Shown one piece after another: positions 9,867 to 28,833 of a DNA stretch of 64,000 bases. Each line of letters opens with the position of its first letter. Position 1 is the stretch's first letter. The translations under genes were made by a program, and so were the position numbers. Below the pieces are notes generated by a model. It searched no databases and had not been told where the DNA came from. It was given only the letters and a program-made list of their open reading frames with translations. This DNA is from Chloroflexota bacterium (GTDB lineage Bacteria > Chloroflexota > Anaerolineae > UBA2200), in the NCBI GenBank assembly GCA_014360905.1, contig JACIWW010000001.1, forward strand, positions 62,001 through 126,000, in the 5' to 3' direction.

Positions 9867-9937
9867 CGCTTCCAGCAAGGAAAGACTGCGGTCAATTCAC
9901 TCCCTGTGCACTAACAAAACACAGACAGCTCTATCTT

Positions 9938-10055
9938 CCACAGGCTACGAGGTTAGCTGACGGGTTTGAGAGGGAAGACTCTCCTACTCGTACCCACGAG
10001 ATACACCCCGAAAATTGGTTCCCCCGTTCCCCGCATGGGGACTCGCCAGAGCCAG
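9938..10055 (-). promoter_or_regulatory. c-di-AMP riboswitch (ydaO/yuaA type)
   Basis: Read on the minus strand, the leader has the conserved ydaO blocks in order: GGGGGAACC (complement of 10017-10025), CGGGGTG (10004-10010), a GTAGGAGAG/CTCTC stem, and CAGCTAACCTCGTAG (within 9943-9964). This last block is a hallmark of the c-di-AMP aptamer. A terminator follows downstream. In known examples c-di-AMP binding shuts off genes for osmolyte or ion transport and wall remodelling. Here it precedes a nucleotidyltransferase. Confidence 0.87.
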
Positions 10056-10076
10056 GAAATCTGTATTTTGATTGTT

Positions 10077-20005: not shown

Positions 20006-20077
20006 GCAATTCCCAGGTCTCGCTCTGGTTCGCTGGGATGTGGTCATTGGGATTTGTCCATTGATTAGGGGATTGTG

Positions 20078-20614
20078 ATGCTAATTGAACGGTATGAACT
20101 CAGATTGGAATCACCGCCATGTGATCCAGGCAGTGAGCGCTGGAGCGCTTTTGCACAGGTTGACACCGACATTGCAGAAGTGCTGCCCTATCTGAACGCC
20201 AAGCTGAGCGGCGCCATTTATGATCACAAGGCGCAGGTATTGACCTGGCGTATGGGCGGACGCGCTATCTCCATCCGTCCCCATGAGATCGCTGTGAGCA
20301 ACCTGCAGGATCGTGCCGAGGCTGAAGCGATGGTCAGACGCATGGTGGATTTGATCAACGAGACCTGGGAACAGCGGGAGCGCATTCAGCCTAGTCTGGT
20401 GAAGCGCGAACCACTCAAAGCGCTCGATGTCTATAAACTGCTGCCCGGGTCAAATTGCAAAGCCTGCGGGCAACCGACGTGTTTCACATTTGCTTTGAAA
20501 CTAGTGGCAGGACAGGCGGCAATATCCGCCTGTGCGCCGCTTTTTGAAGATGAATACCGTTCACAACGCACGCGGCTGCTGCAAATGCTCGAAGCCGCAG
20601 GAATCACAACTTAG
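20078..20614 (+). CDS. (Fe-S)-binding protein with CdhE-like 4Fe-4S motif (paralog 1)
   Basis: A 178-residue protein. ATG 20078 has AGGGG 6 nt upstream. The C-terminal third has NCKACGQPTCFTFAL then ISACAPL: a CxxCxxxxC...C motif like the 4Fe-4S domain of the corrinoid Fe-S protein CdhE/AcsC and RnfB. The N-terminal two thirds (DIAEVLPYLNAKLSGAIY, WRMGGRAISIRP) match the gene at 28273. It probably passes electrons to or from the neighbouring ferredoxins; the partner is unknown. It sits directly after the tandem-UGA gene. Confidence 0.75.
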   Translation: MLIERYELRLESPPCDPGSERWSAFAQVDTDIAEVLPYLNAKLSGAIYDHKAQVLTWRMGGRAISIRPHEIAVSNLQDRAEAEAMVRRMVDLINETWEQRERIQPSLVKREPLKALDVYKLLPGSNCKACGQPTCFTFALKLVAGQAAISACAPLFEDEYRSQRTRLLQMLEAAGITT

Positions 20615-22082: not shown

Positions 22083-23708
22083 ATGCATAACTGGGTATAC
22101 ATCCTGCGTAATAAAATAGAAACTGTAGGGCTCGTCTTGCTGCTGCTCATCTTAGTTGCTGAGATGGAAAGTGGCGTTCATGCCGATGGCGTGGTGTATC
22201 TGTTCTATTTCTACGACCCCAATTGTCCGGTGTGTCAGGACATTCATGAGAGTGTCCTGGAGCCATTGCTTGCTGCTTACGAGGGACGCGTTGTCGCTCA
22301 TGAACTCAATATGGCTGACGCCGCGAACTTTGAGTTCTTGCTTGACCTGGAGAAGCGCTTTGGCGTCACCAATCCGGGCATTCCCGAGATCTTTGTCGGC
22401 GAAGACGTCCTGATTGGCCCAGAGGAAATCAGCACCCGCCTGAAAGAGCGTGTGGACTACTACCTAGCGCAGGGCGGCGTGGAACTCCCTGTCGAACCAC
22501 CGGCTGCAGCCCCCACCCCCACGCCAGAGTGCACTGAATGCACTGCCATCCATGAAGCACAGCGCACCGCAATGGCTGCCATGCAGACACCCTCACCGCA
22601 ATGGACGGCTACTCCCGTATCAGGCGAAAGACCACCCATTTATGTCGCTTGGTTCTACCAACCTGGCTGCGACCTCTGTGAACGGAAGGAGCATGATCTG
22701 CAGTACATCCTAAACAAATATCCGCAAGTAAAAGTGCAGCGCTTTAACGTGAAGGAAGAGATGGCACTGAACCAGTACCTGTGTCTCAAGGCCAAAGTAC
22801 CGGAGGAGCGACACCTCACCGCTCCAGCATTCTTTGTCGCGGATTCAGCCTTAGTCGGAACAGAGATCACCGGATCCAGCATGGAGGAGTTGATCCGCCC
22901 TTACCTCGAAACAGGAGCACCAGAACCTTGGACAGGCTATGAAGCGCAGAAAGAAGTCGTTGAAAAGACCATCTTGGAACGCTTCCGTTCGCTGGGCCTG
23001 TGGACTGTGATCGGAGCGGGACTGCTAGATGGCCTGAACCCCTGTGCTTTTGCTACAATGATCTTCCTCGTTTCCTACCTCTCGGTGCGCAAGCGACAAG
23101 GGCGCGAGATCATCGCCACCGGCGCCGCATTCACAATAGGGGTATTTTTCGCCTACCTCGGGGTAGGATTGGGCATGCTCAAGTTTCTCACCTCGCTGCC
23201 GGTGCTAAGTACAATGGGCAAGTGGATCTACGGCTTCACACTGGTGCTCTGTCTGGGCCTGGCTTGGGGTAGCTTCAGCGATTACCGCAAAGCCAAGCAA
23301 GGACAACTGGAAGACATGAGTCTAAAGTTACCCGATCGGATGCGTGGTTGGATACGCTACCTAATCCGCGAGGGTTCTCGGGCGCGGAATTACATAGCGG
23401 CCTCTTTGGTGCTGGGTTTTATTGTCTCCATTGTCGAGCTGGCTTGCACCGGACAAGTGTATCTACCCACGATCATTTTCGTGTTGGGTCTGCCGGAATG
23501 GCGTGCCAGAGCGGTTTCCGCGCTGCTTACCTACAACTTGATGTTCATCACACCTTTGATCTTCGTTTTCTTGCTCGTCTATTTCGGAACGACTTCTCAA
23601 CAACTCACGCGCTGGATGATGCGACGAGCCGCAGCAGTCAAGCTAGGCACTGCAGCGCTCTTCTTGCTGCTGGCGGGATGGTTGGGCTACAGCATCGCTG
23701 CGTTATAA
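22083..23708 (+). CDS. Two thioredoxin domains fused to a CcdA/DsbD-like membrane domain
   Basis: A 541-residue fusion. After an N-terminal hydrophobic segment (residues 13-35) comes a thioredoxin-like domain with DPNCPVCQD, then a Thr/Pro linker containing ECTEC, a second thioredoxin-like domain with QPGCDLCER (about residue 200), and from about residue 310 six or more membrane segments with the conserved pair DGLNPCAFAT and ELACTGQVYLPT, as in CcdA/DsbD/ScsB carriers. It should move reducing equivalents across the membrane to extracytoplasmic thioredoxin domains. ATG 22083 has GGAG 7 nt upstream. Its paralog is at 26073. Confidence 0.87.
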   Translation: MHNWVYILRNKIETVGLVLLLLILVAEMESGVHADGVVYLFYFYDPNCPVCQDIHESVLEPLLAAYEGRVVAHELNMADAANFEFLLDLEKRFGVTNPGIPEIFVGEDVLIGPEEISTRLKERVDYYLAQGGVELPVEPPAAAPTPTPECTECTAIHEAQRTAMAAMQTPSPQWTATPVSGERPPIYVAWFYQPGCDLCERKEHDLQYILNKYPQVKVQRFNVKEEMALNQYLCLKAKVPEERHLTAPAFFVADSALVGTEITGSSMEELIRPYLETGAPEPWTGYEAQKEVVEKTILERFRSLGLWTVIGAGLLDGLNPCAFATMIFLVSYLSVRKRQGREIIATGAAFTIGVFFAYLGVGLGMLKFLTSLPVLSTMGKWIYGFTLVLCLGLAWGSFSDYRKAKQGQLEDMSLKLPDRMRGWIRYLIREGSRARNYIAASLVLGFIVSIVELACTGQVYLPTIIFVLGLPEWRARAVSALLTYNLMFITPLIFVFLLVYFGTTSQQLTRWMMRRAAAVKLGTAALFLLLAGWLGYSIAAL

Positions 23709-23751: not shown

Positions 23752-24339
23752 TTGACTCTGCTGCTATTGGCAGGAGTGCTCTTGCTAGGCTGTGGGGCAT
23801 GTAGCAGCCAGGCAACGCCGGCCGCCGTATCCAAGCCCACAGAAGGCGTGGCCATGGCAAGCGCTTCTCCAACACCTGAGGAAATTATCCAGGTTACCGT
23901 CGTTGAGCCGGTCAGCCAAGTCATTCGCAATGACACCTACTACTTCGATAACTGCAGTGGCACAGAGGAACGGCGCCAAGCTTTGAGCACGGTTGCCCAA
24001 GTGCAGAAAAGCCTCACTCTAGGGGCCGAAGCTAAAGCAATGGAGAGCGGCCAAGGGACCGCCATATCGGAAGAGTGCCGTGCTAAACTGACGCTTGAGA
24101 TTGAGAAGGCGTATCAGGATAGATTGGCTGCTATCCAAGCCGATCTCGCGCAGGAGGAAATGGTGGCGGGAGCGTACTCGCGCTTCAACTATACTATCAT
24201 CTGGGAGGAACAACGATTTAGTTCCACCGTATCCCTTACACTCGATGGACAGTCTTATACTATACCCTATACCCTGACCCTGTTTGTGCCAAGCCTGGGA
24301 AGCGCTAAATCAATCCCTTGCTCTGGTTGAATGCGCTAA
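23752..24339 (+). CDS. Candidate seleno-lipoprotein ending CSGU-MR
   Basis: TTG 23752 follows AAAGG by 8 nt; the frame is also open upstream through IKVHT, which would give a better signal peptide from a non-standard ATA. A lipobox LLLGC and a Thr/Pro linker come first, then a soluble domain of unknown family with FDNCSGTEE and SEEC. The frame meets TGA at 24328, giving SIPCSG-Sec-Met-Arg-stop (TAA 24337-24339), so the Sec would form a CxxU redox pair. A hairpin follows at SECIS distance. It lies between CcdA and thioredoxin genes and is presumably anchored outside the membrane. If the TGA is a true stop the protein simply ends CSG. Confidence 0.65.
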
Positions 24340-24345
24340 CAAAAC

Positions 24346-24363
24346 GCCTGCCAGTTGGCAGGC
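24346..24363 (+). promoter_or_regulatory. Candidate SECIS hairpin after the lipoprotein UGA
   Basis: GCCTGCC (24346-24352) pairs with GGCAGGC (24357-24363) around an AGTT loop. The loop begins 22 nt after TGA 24328-24330. There is no T-run, so a terminator is less likely. Confidence 0.6.
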
Positions 24364-24389
24364 ATAAAAGAACAAGGAAACAATTGTCT

Positions 24390-24905
24390 ATGCGTTCATC
24401 ACTCTATCGCTGGCTGGTCGGGTTGCTCGTGCTTGCTGCGGTTGTAGCCATTTTGGCACTAAAAACTCGTGGCACAACAAGCAATATTTCCAACTTGCCT
24501 GCTAAAGAGATGGCGTCTGCGACCACATCACTGACACCAACGCCATCTCCTCTTAGTGAGGAGGCAGACCCATTTCCGAGCAAAGCAGATCCAGCTACCC
24601 AGATCGAATGGGTGCTGCGCCACAAGAAGCCAGCCATGATCCTTTTCCACAGCAACCTTTGCCGGCCCTGTCTAATGATGGAAGCCTTGGTGCAGATGGT
24701 GCGACGCGACTACGAGCCCACTGTCGTGTTCATCGAAATCGTCATTGACGATCCGGCCAACGCTGACCTGGTCCGCGCCGCGCGCATTGGCAGCATCCCA
24801 GCTTCCTTATTCGTGGACCGCTCCGGACAAGTCAAACGGGTTGTTGGCTTAATGAAGCAACAGGACCTGCGTGCTGAACTGGCTAGACTAATGAGTGAGG
24901 AATGA
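24390..24905 (+). CDS. Membrane-anchored thioredoxin-like protein
   Basis: A 171-residue protein starting at ATG 24390. One N-terminal membrane helix (WLVGLLVLAAVVAILAL) is followed by a Thr/Pro/Ser linker and a thioredoxin fold with active site NLCRPCLMM (about residues 90-98) and cis-Pro loop GSIPASLFVDRSGQ. The domain faces outside. It is likely a thiol oxidoreductase receiving electrons from the flanking CcdA-type carriers and passing them to the neighbouring lipoproteins. Confidence 0.85.
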   Translation: MRSSLYRWLVGLLVLAAVVAILALKTRGTTSNISNLPAKEMASATTSLTPTPSPLSEEADPFPSKADPATQIEWVLRHKKPAMILFHSNLCRPCLMMEALVQMVRRDYEPTVVFIEIVIDDPANADLVRAARIGSIPASLFVDRSGQVKRVVGLMKQQDLRAELARLMSEE

Positions 24906-24915
24906 GGCGGTAACC

Positions 24916-26010
24916 ATGCGCAGATACAGATGCTGTTTCCAAATTTCCATAGCAAAGGCTGCCGTCTTCCTGCTGCTGGCAATACTGCTTATCGGCTGCT
25001 CGGGGGACACTGTAAACCAACCTGCACCGACCATTATCCCGGTGGCGCCCAGCAGGGCATTTCCGACGGCTACGAAACCCGTGTCGCCCACAACAGTTCC
25101 ACCTACGCCGACAAAGGCTATACTGTTGCCCCCTACCCCAACGCCACCGTTGCAAGGCGTAGCGAGGCTTACTATCCTATATACCAACGATACACGGGGC
25201 TATGTAGACCCCTGCGGCTGAGGAGTTCCCATGGGTGGAGTAGCCCGGCGGGCTACCGCAATCGAGTATCTTCGCGAACAAGCAGGCGAACACGTGCTCG
25301 TGTTGGATGCAGGAAACACGCTTTTGGGGGAAAGATTGGCTTTTGAAACCAAGGGGCGCATTATTGTGGAAGCGATGAATGCCATGGGATATGACGCCCT
25401 CACTGTGGGCACCTTGGAATTGAGCCAGGGAATCCAAGTGCTCCAGGAGCGTGCAAAGGAGGCAAATTTTGCCATCCTCTCTTGCAACATCCTCGATACG
25501 CAGAGCGAGAAGCCTCTCTTCACGCCCTATATCATCGTGCAACGAGACGGCTTGCGCTATGGCATTATCGGTGTTAGTGAACCGGAGATAGTCAATTTGG
25601 CAGACATCGCCCAAACAGCTAAGGCCCTGGATCCCATACAGAGCCTGCAGAGATATTTGCCTGAGGTGCAAGAGCACAGCGATGTGATCATCGTGCTCTC
25701 GCATCTAGGCCTAGAAGGAGACAAGGCTCTAGCTCAAGCCATACCAGACATTGACGTGATTGTGGGAGGAAGGTCAAGGAGGCTTCTCCGAGCGCCTGAA
25801 ATGGTGGGCTCGACGATCATTGTGCAGGCAGGATATGATGGAGAATGGCTGGGCAAGTTGGGTGTAACAGTTACAGCTGAGGGCACGCTTGTTGACCCTT
25901 GGGTGGATATTATACCTCTTGGACCAGATATTGCCGACCATCCGGAGTTGGCAGCTCTTGTCGCACGCTATAACCAGCTCTACCCGCCGCCAACGCCCGG
26001 TGCCCATTGA
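24916..26010 (+). CDS. Metallophosphatase-like lipoprotein with CGU motif (candidate selenoprotein)
   Basis: The frame has a lipobox (LLIGC), a Thr/Pro linker, then LTILYTNDTRGYVDPCG, TGA (25219-25221), GVPMGGVARRATAIEYL and about 250 further residues in the same frame. Homologs of this 5'-nucleotidase-like type carry CGC here, so TGA most likely encodes Sec (residue 102 of 364). A 7-bp hairpin follows at SECIS distance. Metal ligands of true metallophosphatases are altered: TNDTRG for NDxHG, VGTLE for GNHE, GGRSRR for GHSH, so phosphatase activity is doubtful and a thiol/selenol role is more likely. Without Sec it would be two broken ORFs. Confidence 0.78.
25240..25256 (+). promoter_or_regulatory. 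Candidate SECIS hairpin in the CGU lipoprotein gene
   Basis: GTAGCCC (25240-25246) pairs perfectly with GGGCTAC (25250-25256) around the loop GGC. The loop begins 25 nt after TGA 25219-25221. It is inside the coding frame, as bacterial SECIS elements are. Confidence 0.7.
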
Positions 26011-26072
26011 GCGAGATAGCCTCCTATTTCACTTGCTCGCCAGAGCAATGGCTTAGACAGGGTGTAGAGATA

Positions 26073-27296
26073 ATGTGGCATAAGAAATACACAGTCCTAT
26101 ACCACATAGCTGCCACTGCAGGGATACTGCTTGTCGTTGCTCTGCTGTGGAATAGCGGCATCGCAATGCACCTGCGTTTCCTCAAAGCTGGCGCTGCCCA
26201 AAGTTCGGCGGAATCTCCCCCCATATACCTGGTATACTTCTACCAACCGGGTTGTGACCTATGCGCAAAGGCAGATCGCGATGTCGAATACGTCGCGAGC
26301 AGGTATCCTCAGGTGAAAGTGCGCCGGCTGAACATCCGTGAAGAGGCTGCCTTTAACCAGTATCTCTGTCTCCGCGCTGGCGTGCCAGAAGAGAGGCATC
26401 TTGTCGCTCCCGCCGTTTTTGTTGGCGATGACTACCTAGTTGGTCTGAGCCAAATCGGCGCTCGCCCCCTCGAAGAACTGATCAAGCCGTATCTCGCTTC
26501 AGGTTCACCGGAGCTCTGGGCCGACTGGGAAGCAGGCAAACAAGTTGCCGAGGAGGCGATTGTGCAGCGTTTTCGTTCTCTCGGACTGCTGACCGTAGTT
26601 GGCGCCGGGCTGTTGGATGGCATTAACCCCTGTGCCTTTGCCACCATGATTTTCCTCATCTCCTACCTTTCGGTACGTAAGCGACAGGGACGTGAGTTGC
26701 TGGCTACCGGAGCTGCTTTTGCTACCGGCGTCTTCCTGGCCTATCTGGCCATGGGGTTGGGGCTTCTGCAATTTCTTACTGCACTGCCGATGCTTGATGT
26801 CATTGGCAAATGGGTTTACGGCCTCACCATGCTGCTGTGTCTGGGCTTGGCTTGGGGAAGTTTTGCCGATTACCGCAAGGCACGAGAAGGACGTCTGGAG
26901 GATATGAGTTTGAAGCTGCCAGACTACCTACGCGGATGGTCGAGACGCTTGATTCGCGAAGGATCGCGAGCAAGGAACTTTGTGTTGGCCTCGCTGGTTT
27001 TGGGAGCAGCGGTATCTATCGTGGAGCTAGCTTGCACCGGCCAGGTTTACCTGCCTACGATCATTTTCGTGTTGGGCTTGAAAGAGTGGCGGGCACGAGC
27101 AGGTCTGGCTTTGCTCATGTACAACGTGATGTTCATCCTACCACTGGTCATCGTCTTCCTGCTGGTGTACTTGGGCACTACTTCCCAGCAACTGTTGCAT
27201 TGGATGAACCGCAGGGCTGCTGCGGTCAAATTGGGGACAGCCGTCCTGTTTGCGTTGCTGGCCGTCTGGCTGGGCTACAGCATCATTGTTTTCTAG
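26073..27296 (+). CDS. Thioredoxin domain fused to CcdA/DsbD-like membrane domain
   Basis: A 407-residue paralog of the second half of the gene at 22083. ATG 26073 is chosen; an in-frame TTG at 26007 has no ribosome site. One N-terminal membrane helix is followed by a thioredoxin-like domain with QPGCDLCAK (about residue 58) and a polytopic carrier domain with DGINPCAFAT and ELACTGQVYLPT, the Cys pair that shuttles electrons through the bilayer. The first thioredoxin domain of the paralog is missing. It delivers reducing power outward, probably to the adjacent lipoproteins. Confidence 0.87.
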   Translation: MWHKKYTVLYHIAATAGILLVVALLWNSGIAMHLRFLKAGAAQSSAESPPIYLVYFYQPGCDLCAKADRDVEYVASRYPQVKVRRLNIREEAAFNQYLCLRAGVPEERHLVAPAVFVGDDYLVGLSQIGARPLEELIKPYLASGSPELWADWEAGKQVAEEAIVQRFRSLGLLTVVGAGLLDGINPCAFATMIFLISYLSVRKRQGRELLATGAAFATGVFLAYLAMGLGLLQFLTALPMLDVIGKWVYGLTMLLCLGLAWGSFADYRKAREGRLEDMSLKLPDYLRGWSRRLIREGSRARNFVLASLVLGAAVSIVELACTGQVYLPTIIFVLGLKEWRARAGLALLMYNVMFILPLVIVFLLVYLGTTSQQLLHWMNRRAAAVKLGTAVLFALLAVWLGYSIIVF

Positions 27297-27345: not shown

Positions 27346-28017
27346 ATGGAATGGGATTTTTCGGCAGTAGCCAATGTCTCGTTGTGGGCTTATCTGATTG
27401 TCTTTACCCGGGGGGTGTTGACTAGCATTGGGCCATGCAACATGGCCATGATCCCGCTAGTTATCGCCTTCGTCGCAGGGCAGAAGCAGATTAGCCGTTG
27501 GCGCAGTCTGACCCTCTCTGGAGCGTTCGCCCTGGGGCTGGCGATTACCTTCACAGCTCTGGGAGTGCTCGCCGCCCTGGTGGGGCGGATTATTGGTGCA
27601 GGTGGCCTGTGGTACTATGTCATGGCAGCGGTGTGCATTATCATGGGCTTGCAGTGGATGGGAGTCGTTTCGCTTCCCCTGCCAGACTGGGGTGCCGGAC
27701 AGCGCGAAAAGATCAAGCGACGTGGTATGATGGGAGCATTACTGCTCGGCCTGGTCTCAGGCTTCGTTGCCTCTGGCTGCGCCATGCCTGCGCTGATTGC
27801 TATTCTCACGCTTGTCATGTCCAAGGGTGCGCTAGCCTACGGCGCGAGCCTGCTCCTGATGTACGGAGCTGGGCGTGGTGTGCCTATCGTCTTGCTCGGC
27901 ACCTTTGCGGGTTGGACGAAACTCATGCCTAAGAGGTCGGCATGGACAGCTCGGATTGAGCAATTGAGTGGGGCATTCATGGTCCTAATCGGATTGTATT
28001 TCCTATGGAGTGCTTGA
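27346..28017 (+). CDS. CcdA-like membrane electron carrier
   Basis: A 223-residue protein with six predicted membrane segments and the CcdA Cys pair, SIGPCNMAMIP (about residue 31) and VASGCAMPAL (about residue 144). It lacks fused thioredoxin domains, unlike the two neighbours. AAGGAG precedes ATG 27346 by 11 nt. CcdA carries electrons from cytoplasmic thioredoxin to outward-facing partners. It is the third such carrier within 6 kb, which suggests several extracytoplasmic acceptors. Confidence 0.88.
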   Translation: MEWDFSAVANVSLWAYLIVFTRGVLTSIGPCNMAMIPLVIAFVAGQKQISRWRSLTLSGAFALGLAITFTALGVLAALVGRIIGAGGLWYYVMAAVCIIMGLQWMGVVSLPLPDWGAGQREKIKRRGMMGALLLGLVSGFVASGCAMPALIAILTLVMSKGALAYGASLLLMYGAGRGVPIVLLGTFAGWTKLMPKRSAWTARIEQLSGAFMVLIGLYFLWSA

Positions 28018-28045: not shown

Positions 28046-28255
28046 ATGAAGAAAGCATTGGTAGTCCCTTTGAGCGACCAGGAGCTTCTTGAGCTGTGTC
28101 GCGTTCTGCTCGACCGTGATGAGAGGGGCGCCCTGCAATTCTTGGACGAACATCTCAAGCACCCAGCAAACGAGGCGCTAGCAGGCGGTTGAAAGGTGCT
28201 CATCGAGGTGCCTGGGTCAGGCATCAAAGAGGTGCCCGGCAAACGCCTGTTCTGA
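28046..28255 (+). CDS. Small protein with in-frame UGA (possible selenoprotein)
   Basis: The frame from ATG 28046 reads KKALVVPLSDQELLELCRVL and on through HPANEALAGG, then TGA (28190-28192, residue 49), then KVLIEVPGSGIKEVPGKRLF and a second TGA at 28253. Coding-like sequence continues through the first TGA, and a 7-bp hairpin with loop GGGTC lies at SECIS distance. If Sec is inserted the protein has 69 residues; otherwise 48. No family is recognised. It sits between CcdA and the second Fe-S protein gene. The start could also be ATG 28040. Confidence 0.5.
28207..28225 (+). promoter_or_regulatory. Candidate SECIS hairpin after UGA 28190
   Basis: GGTGCCT (28207-28213) pairs with AGGCATC (28219-28225), including one G-U pair, around loop GGGTC. 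The loop begins 21 nt after the TGA. Confidence 0.5.
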
Positions 28256-28272
28256 AATCCCATGAGACGATC

Positions 28273-28833
28273 ATGAGTCAAAATGATGTGCTATTACATA
28301 ACTTCAAAATTACCCACGTCCTGGACTGCATCGCTGACCCCACCAAGAACCGCATCATTGCCGAGTTTTCGGACAATGTTGCCGCCGTTTTCCCGTACCT
28401 GAATGCCATCATCCCGAACTTGATGTACAACCCTGCGGCACAAATCATCACCATCAAGAGGGAATGGCGCATTCTCACCTTCTATCCTCACGTGGCAGTC
28501 ATGGCCAAAATAGACGGTATTGAGGACGCTATCGCTCAATTGACCTGGTTCCAGGGGCTATGCAATGACACTTGGCGCCGGCGAGGGGAGATCGCGCCTT
28601 GCTACGAGGCACGCAAGCTATTGGGGTCGTTGGACGTGTACCCATTGCTGCCGCGCCTCAATTGCAAAGCCTGTGGTGAAGCTACTTGCATGGCTTTCGC
28701 TTTCGAGCTATTGTGGGGTGGGCGCCACCTCTCGGAATGCCCTCACTTATCAGACTCAGAACATGCGGAGGCAGGGCAACGACTGGCCCAATTGCTGGGA
28801 ATTGGCAAAGAGCTGCAGAAACCAAATAGATAG
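28273..28833 (+). CDS. (Fe-S)-binding protein with CdhE-like 4Fe-4S motif (paralog 2)
   Basis: A 186-residue protein paralogous to the one at 20078. ATG 28273 is the likely start; an upstream open frame (28189) overlaps the candidate Sec gene. The C-terminal motif is NCKACGEATCMAFAFEL then LSECPHL. The N-terminal part keeps AAVFPYLNAIIPNLMY and REWRILTFYPH. It likely binds one 4Fe-4S cluster and participates in the island's electron transfer. Confidence 0.72.
   Translation: MSQNDVLLHNFKITHVLDCIADPTKNRIIAEFSDNVAAVFPYLNAIIPNLMYNPAAQIITIKREWRILTFYPHVAVMAKIDGIEDAIAQLTWFQGLCNDTWRRRGEIAPCYEARKLLGSLDVYPLLPRLNCKACGEATCMAFAFELLWGGRHLSECPHLSDSEHAEAGQRLAQLLGIGKELQKPNR

Follow-up and report, generated by a model that had tools for sequence, protein, structure and literature searches.

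A selenoprotein of the UshA-like CxU type (COG0737) was catalogued by Zhang and Gladyshev in 2008, and their survey noted it as a special case for its want of a standard Cys redox motif (PMC2398784). Reviews list the type as 'UshA-like, CxU' (PMC13188914), and the entries for it in these sources, from 2008 onwards, assign it no function. Its domain is also covered by a curated model, NF041198 (UshA_like_PCGU, 'UshA-like (seleno)protein'). The term PCGU itself was not found in our literature search.

Here we describe a protein of this kind from the 64,000-nucleotide stretch of Chloroflexota DNA that we analysed, hereafter the window. NF041198 is its best curated family (E 2.8e-58), with a score of 197.8 bits that lies under the cut-off of 275. 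An earlier note on the same DNA had taken the protein as unnamed, which does not stand in view of this model and the literature. Taken as a whole, we think it rather likely that the gene encodes a selenocysteine-containing lipoprotein with a metal-free UshA fold, in which a Cys-Sec pair has a redox role and is re-reduced by the products of neighbouring genes.

The selenoprotein gene and its candidate SECIS hairpin

The gene (24916-26010, forward strand) encodes an UshA-like CGU selenoprotein, 364 aa long, whose residue 102 is Sec, as judged from the read-through frame, the family and fold, and an 81% identical orthologue. The sole internal TGA of the frame (25219-25221) comes right after GAC CCC TGC GGC, encoding DPCG, and the terminal stop is a second TGA (26008-26010), so that UGA has two meanings within this one gene. 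PCGU corresponds to residues 99-102, and the Cys-Gly-Sec motif proper (C100-G101-U102; 25213-25221, forward strand) is recognized by its conservation in the short members, the single-domain relatives to which the window protein belongs. At the N-terminus (24916-25155, forward strand), sequence and model confidence delimit a hydrophobic segment with the lipobox LIGC, whose lipid Cys 28 is encoded at 24997-24999, and a Thr/Pro-rich linker (residues 27-80) of low model confidence; the domain begins at about residue 80. A lipobox-like motif is present in 29 of the 40 short members, and the prediction that the product is an extracytoplasmic lipid-anchored lipoprotein is supported. Comparison with the 81% identical orthologue, which has the same TGA, gives a dN/dS of 0.10 for the whole gene and 0.07 for the domain, values that indicate strong purifying selection.

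Homologues were gathered from GTDB contigs and 60 relatives. About 41 different Anaerolineae/Chloroflexota genes, from many families and at about 35-81% identity, have TGA at the same PCG-U site, and the agreement of many independent, mostly metagenome-assembled, genomes rules out a sequencing error. C100 is found in 38 of the 40 short members and position 102 is Cys or Sec in all of them; three variants of the motif (ATU, CGVU and VGGUU) occur in a few genes, and G107/G108 and R111/R112 are nearly invariant across the clade. Just one short-clade gene (L031, PCAC) has Cys (TGC) at the Sec site, and CGC stands at the corresponding site in Planctomycetota relatives. The window genome also encodes SelB (C6:16546-18435, 347.6 bits against a cut-off of 242) and a tRNA-Sec with UCA anticodon (C4:25801-25896, 70.3 bits; tca in ARAGORN). 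In two related genomes selA adjoins a PCGU gene (TIGR00474; the copy that was scanned scores 592.6 bits), lying convergent and immediately beside it (L062:6357-7742 and L057:2887-4359). The pattern of SelB/PCGU co-occurrence is suggestive only: 9 of the 60 relatives have no SelB above the cut-off, and six of these (G009, G022, G029, G037, G047, G054) are also without a PCGU-TGA gene, while G005, G018 and G030 do have one; G005 and G018 show partial SelB pieces only, and G030, whose SelB is below the cut-off, has tRNA-Sec.

Decoding of UGA 25219 as selenocysteine, and with it a genuine selenoprotein, is strongly supported by these comparisons. The proposal in the earlier note, that Sec occupies the place where relatives have CGC, is thus upheld by the TGA shared among about 41 genes, by SECIS covariation, and by the presence of SelB and tRNA-Sec.

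Two further genes deserve mention. The window genome holds a second short PCGU selenoprotein gene with the same TGA (G000:C19:9722-10657, L046), and in three relatives a gene of this type is followed by a NAD-dependent epimerase gene in place of the CcdA genes. Another gene, L084 (G005:C41:3158-4048), has two consecutive in-frame TGA codons (VGGUUP), which may represent either a double-Sec motif or decay.

Exactly 18 nt after the Sec codon (25222-25239), a hairpin with a GGC loop lies within the V-A-R-R-A codons (25240-25256, forward strand); its perfect 7-bp stem is formed by GTAGCCC (25240-25246) and GGGCTAC (25250-25256). Bacterial SECIS rules call for a loop of 3-9 nt with G in the first two positions, a stem of 4-16 bp, 16-37 nt from UGA to loop, and an MFE of at most -7.5 (PMC13188914). 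The window hairpin, with a UGA-to-loop distance of 25 nt and an energy of -14.1 kcal/mol, agrees with all of these constraints. This energy is unexceptional under synonymous recoding (p=0.24; mean z about -1.0 for 33 members), because the Ala-Arg-Arg-Ala codons form a natural near palindrome, and as the energy test is not significant per gene, a covariation test was used instead. At the third bases of the Ala1 and Arg2 codons, 21 genes have C-G, 14 have T-A and 1 is mismatched (Fisher p=4e-9, which treats these related genes as independent), and the third bases of the preceding V/L codon and Ala2 pair in 36/36 (G-C, A-T, T-A, C-G, G-T). Parsimony on the tree, which we offer as a correction for relatedness, requires at least 6 changes of pair type for Ala1/Arg2 and 8 for V/L-Ala2. 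Of the 41 Sec genes, 39 have a stem of 5-11 bp; in most Cys/metal homologues, including ones with the same GGxARRA peptide (L142, L044, L101, L115), it is 1 bp long. This contrast (Mann-Whitney p=1e-7, again assuming independent sequences) is understated, since the long 'non-Sec' stems of L048 and L136 belong to fragments of TGA genes. The hairpin qualifies as a genuine SECIS candidate whose stem is preserved by synonymous covariation across homologues, and the SECIS of the short branch can be supported from such codon covariation. In the CGU genes of Planctomycetota, another hairpin occurs at a comparable distance. At gathering scores, Rfam gave no SECIS match within the 64-kb window; its sole match there is a c-di-AMP riboswitch (RF00379, 76.6 bits) at 9927-10058 on the minus strand.

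The UshA-type fold and its former metal site

The AlphaFold model has a mean pLDDT of 79.8, and values around 90 or higher for the greater part of the domain. It superimposes on the N-terminal domains of CD73, UshA, and SoxB with Z scores of 36-38 across about 279 residues, and sequence searches agree. An UshA/5'-nucleotidase-type N-terminal metallophosphatase fold is supported by this model, in line with the phosphatase fold suggested in the earlier note (Z about 37 and rmsd 1.8 to CD73/UshA).

The metal motifs of this fold are altered in the window protein. In the alignment, the former D-x-H motif reads TNDTRG (25183-25200, forward strand), with D92 kept and the H43 equivalent replaced by Arg94; the former GNHE/D motif reads VGTLE (25405-25419, forward strand), with loss of the metal Asn and the catalytic His; and the former GGHSH motif reads GGRSRR (25765-25782, forward strand). 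A further ligand Asp motif, DAGD, has become DAGN, leaving two of the eight ligands, D92 and H263. The first three of these motifs had been read off the sequence in the earlier note, together with the in-frame TGA at 25219 after DPCG and the 7-bp hairpin 18 nt on, and all of these readings were confirmed.

Eight ligand and catalytic positions were compared in an alignment of the short PCGU clade (40 members), the haem-fused group (40 members) and other UshA domains (26). Of the eight, 0-4 are retained in the short clade, 0-5 in the Planctomycetota CxC/CxU cytochrome fusions, and all in complete classical UshA domains; the exceptions in this last group are incomplete sequences or fragments of PCGU/cytochrome type that were misfiled. 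None of the 40 short members has GNH, and GGHxH is gone family-wide; D92 persists in 37/40 and the equivalent of H217 in 20/40. By this alignment, loss of the metal centre is shown to be clade-wide, and not the decay of one copy; the site is lost in the whole CxC/CxU group tested. The earlier note had asked whether all CGC/CGU members share the loss, and those tested do (40 short and 40 haem-fused); neither a different residue or stop at the TGA nor intact ligands in close orthologues, which it had named as signs against its reading, occurred in the PCGU clade. The retained polar residues D92 and H263 could still bind one metal. According to the alignment, Cys-Gly-Sec is situated on the loop that once bore the D-x-H ligands, 8-10 residues after D92. 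Classical enzymes exist alongside: one frame of the window genome (G000:C16:43404-47393, 1606-codon frame) has three UshA-type domains with intact metal ligands.

Gene neighbourhood and proposed role

Ten nucleotides upstream of the selenoprotein gene ends a gene for a thioredoxin-fold membrane/lipoprotein with a CRPC motif (24318-24905, forward strand; Pfam Thioredoxin 4e-8, TIGR01068 4e-11). Overlapping its other end is a gene for a thioredoxin-like (CDLC) domain fused to a CcdA/DsbD-like membrane domain (26007-27296, forward strand; weak ArsG/TsoB matches). A homologous copy lies upstream (22083-23708, forward strand) and was recognized from profile matches and neighbourhood clusters as a second thioredoxin-CcdA-like fusion. 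Further downstream is a CcdA/DsbD transmembrane electron-transfer protein (27346-28017, forward strand; Pfam DsbD_TM 7e-30). A lipoprotein without a family match in profile searches (23752-24330, forward strand) is kept beside the gene in the window genome (G000), G001 and G005. An ArsR-type regulator and an ArsC-like protein also belong to the cluster. Two PF04060 Fe-S motif proteins (window 20075-20614 and 28189-28833) flank the thioredoxin/CcdA genes; they combine a motif as in the gamma subunit of CO dehydrogenase/acetyl-CoA synthase with an N-terminal part of no recognised kind, and the orthologues in G001 and G003 also have relatives of them nearby.

The thioredoxin-fold gene is kept beside the selenoprotein gene in G000, G001, G003 and G005, and the CcdA fusion in these and also in the G007/G045 genus. 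In the neighbourhood comparison this context is confined to the closest clade and absent around most PCGU genes. The neighbours that the earlier note proposed could keep the protein reduced, the CcdA fusions, are thus present in the closest clade (G000, G001, G003, G005, and the G007/G045 genus) and not around most other PCGU genes, and as a general guide to function the conserved neighbourhood fails beyond that clade. From these comparisons a thioredoxin/CcdA electron donor appears not to be general across PCGU genes, and since the neighbours differ elsewhere, the electron source is probably exchangeable.

In the mechanism that we propose, SelB and tRNA-Sec read UGA 25219 as Sec, aided by the SECIS hairpin that follows after 18 nt, and the Cys-Gly-Sec pair would constitute a new active site. 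The pair may cycle between a selenol/thiol and a Cys-Sec selenenylsulfide, reducing a small or protein-bound oxidised substrate. In the window lineage, the lipid-anchored thioredoxin encoded next to it and the membrane proteins of CcdA/DsbD type would return it to the reduced state with electrons drawn from the cytoplasm; in the Planctomycetota forms this task would fall to a fused tetraheme cytochrome. An extracytoplasmic Cys-Sec redox protein, fed at this locus by the adjacent thioredoxin/CcdA proteins, is the most likely role that we infer from sequence and context: C100 and U/C102 are almost invariant where the metals are lost, thioredoxin and CcdA proteins are adjacent in the closest clade, and four c-type haem motifs are fused to the domain in Planctomycetota relatives. 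More tentatively, a metallophosphoesterase fold may have become an extracytoplasmic Cys-Sec oxidoreductase across several phyla, coupled to thioredoxin/CcdA in Chloroflexota and to a fused tetraheme cytochrome in Planctomycetota. If true, that fold would gain its first class of redox enzymes. The combination of metal loss with thioredoxin/CcdA and cytochrome partners makes the function directly testable.

Alternatively, in the direction of the thiol/selenol carrier or metalloid-binding protein inferred in the earlier note, the CGU pair might bind a metalloid (As, Se, Hg) or carry a S/Se atom in a SoxB/SoxYZ-like manner, with no electron cycling. SoxB is the next profile after NF041198 (129 bits), SoxB structures, among them the SoxB-SoxYZ disulfide complex (4uwq), fit the model at Z 36, and the window cluster contains the ArsR-type regulator, the ArsC-like protein and CcdA fusions that are weakly ArsG-like. 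We nonetheless regard this role as unlikely: the protein falls far short of the SoxB cut-off of 550 and lacks the di-metal ligands, most family members have no ArsR/ArsC genes nearby, and the fusion of CxU domains to cytochromes elsewhere fits electron transfer better. The loss of the catalytic His117 in 40/40 short members, the disappearance of GNH and GGHxH across the family, and the absence of the UshA C-terminal nucleotide-binding domain speak against a residual hydrolase or binder. Such a protein would act on a nucleotide or other phosphorylated ligand, perhaps with one metal, and would use CGU as a redox switch or structural pair; despite the UshA N-domain fold (Z 37) and the frequent retention of D92 and the H217 equivalent, we consider this improbable.

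It is scarcely credible that the gene is a pseudogene, a product of sequencing error, or two ORFs divided by a true stop. Table 11 does read TGA as a stop, and an ATG occurs shortly after it (ORF 25231-26010), but the same codon is shared by genes of many families, dN/dS is about 0.1 across it, the SECIS covaries, relatives have Cys at the site, and the genome has the Sec machinery. A decaying gene is ruled out on comparative grounds by the clade-wide ligand loss and by dN/dS.

Comparison with known families

The resemblance to NF041198 lies in the homologous domain, the PCG-Sec/Cys motif and the same loss of UshA metal ligands. The window protein, however, matches only positions 19-269 of the 519 in this model, whose C-terminal half (about 350-519) is a tetraheme cytochrome c554-type domain that the window protein lacks. 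The short clade instead consists of a tethered single domain with an N-terminal hydrophobic segment, often with a lipobox; CxxCH is absent from every short member and occurs four times in Planctomycetota members. In a maximum-likelihood tree the 40 short genes form one clade (support 98/92) that is separate from both the haem-fused and the classical group. A phylum-wide NF041198 search found at least 9 of 400 genomes passing 1e-36, with three candidates per genome scored, and none of the Chloroflexota members among the matches listed passed the model's cut-off. The current NCBI model does not capture the widespread short branch of Anaerolineae, whose genes will consequently be annotated as broken. 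Planctomycetota haem-fused members are often tandem, a Sec gene with a Cys gene. At four such loci (L153, L144, L145, L149) the tandem CGU- and CGC-cytochrome genes lie directly downstream of a putative ECF sigma/anti-sigma pair, recognised by inspection of the sequence, which suggests stress-controlled expression of the Sec/Cys pair.

Among other families, NF049981 ('UshA-like (seleno)protein family 2') has a related UshA-like domain (E 6.8e-17); membership is ruled out by a score of 61.8 bits against a cut-off of 140 and by the motif, which is CxU in the window protein and not CxxU. SoxB (TIGR04486; 2wdc, 4uwq) has the same fold and is the second-best profile at 129.2 bits, above all nucleotidases, but its cut-off of 550 and the missing di-metal ligands rule it out, and a SoxYZ partner was not seen near the gene. 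The N-terminal domain of UshA/CD73 (1ush, 4h2i, 2z1a) shares the fold at 25-32% identity over about 279 residues, whereas the window protein is without the binuclear metal site, the catalytic His and the C-terminal domain, and has gained Sec; the cut-off and the retention of only 2/8 ligands rule out a classical nucleotidase. By these sequence comparisons, the window protein belongs to an already known kind of selenoprotein, of which the short Chloroflexota clade is a distinct variant.
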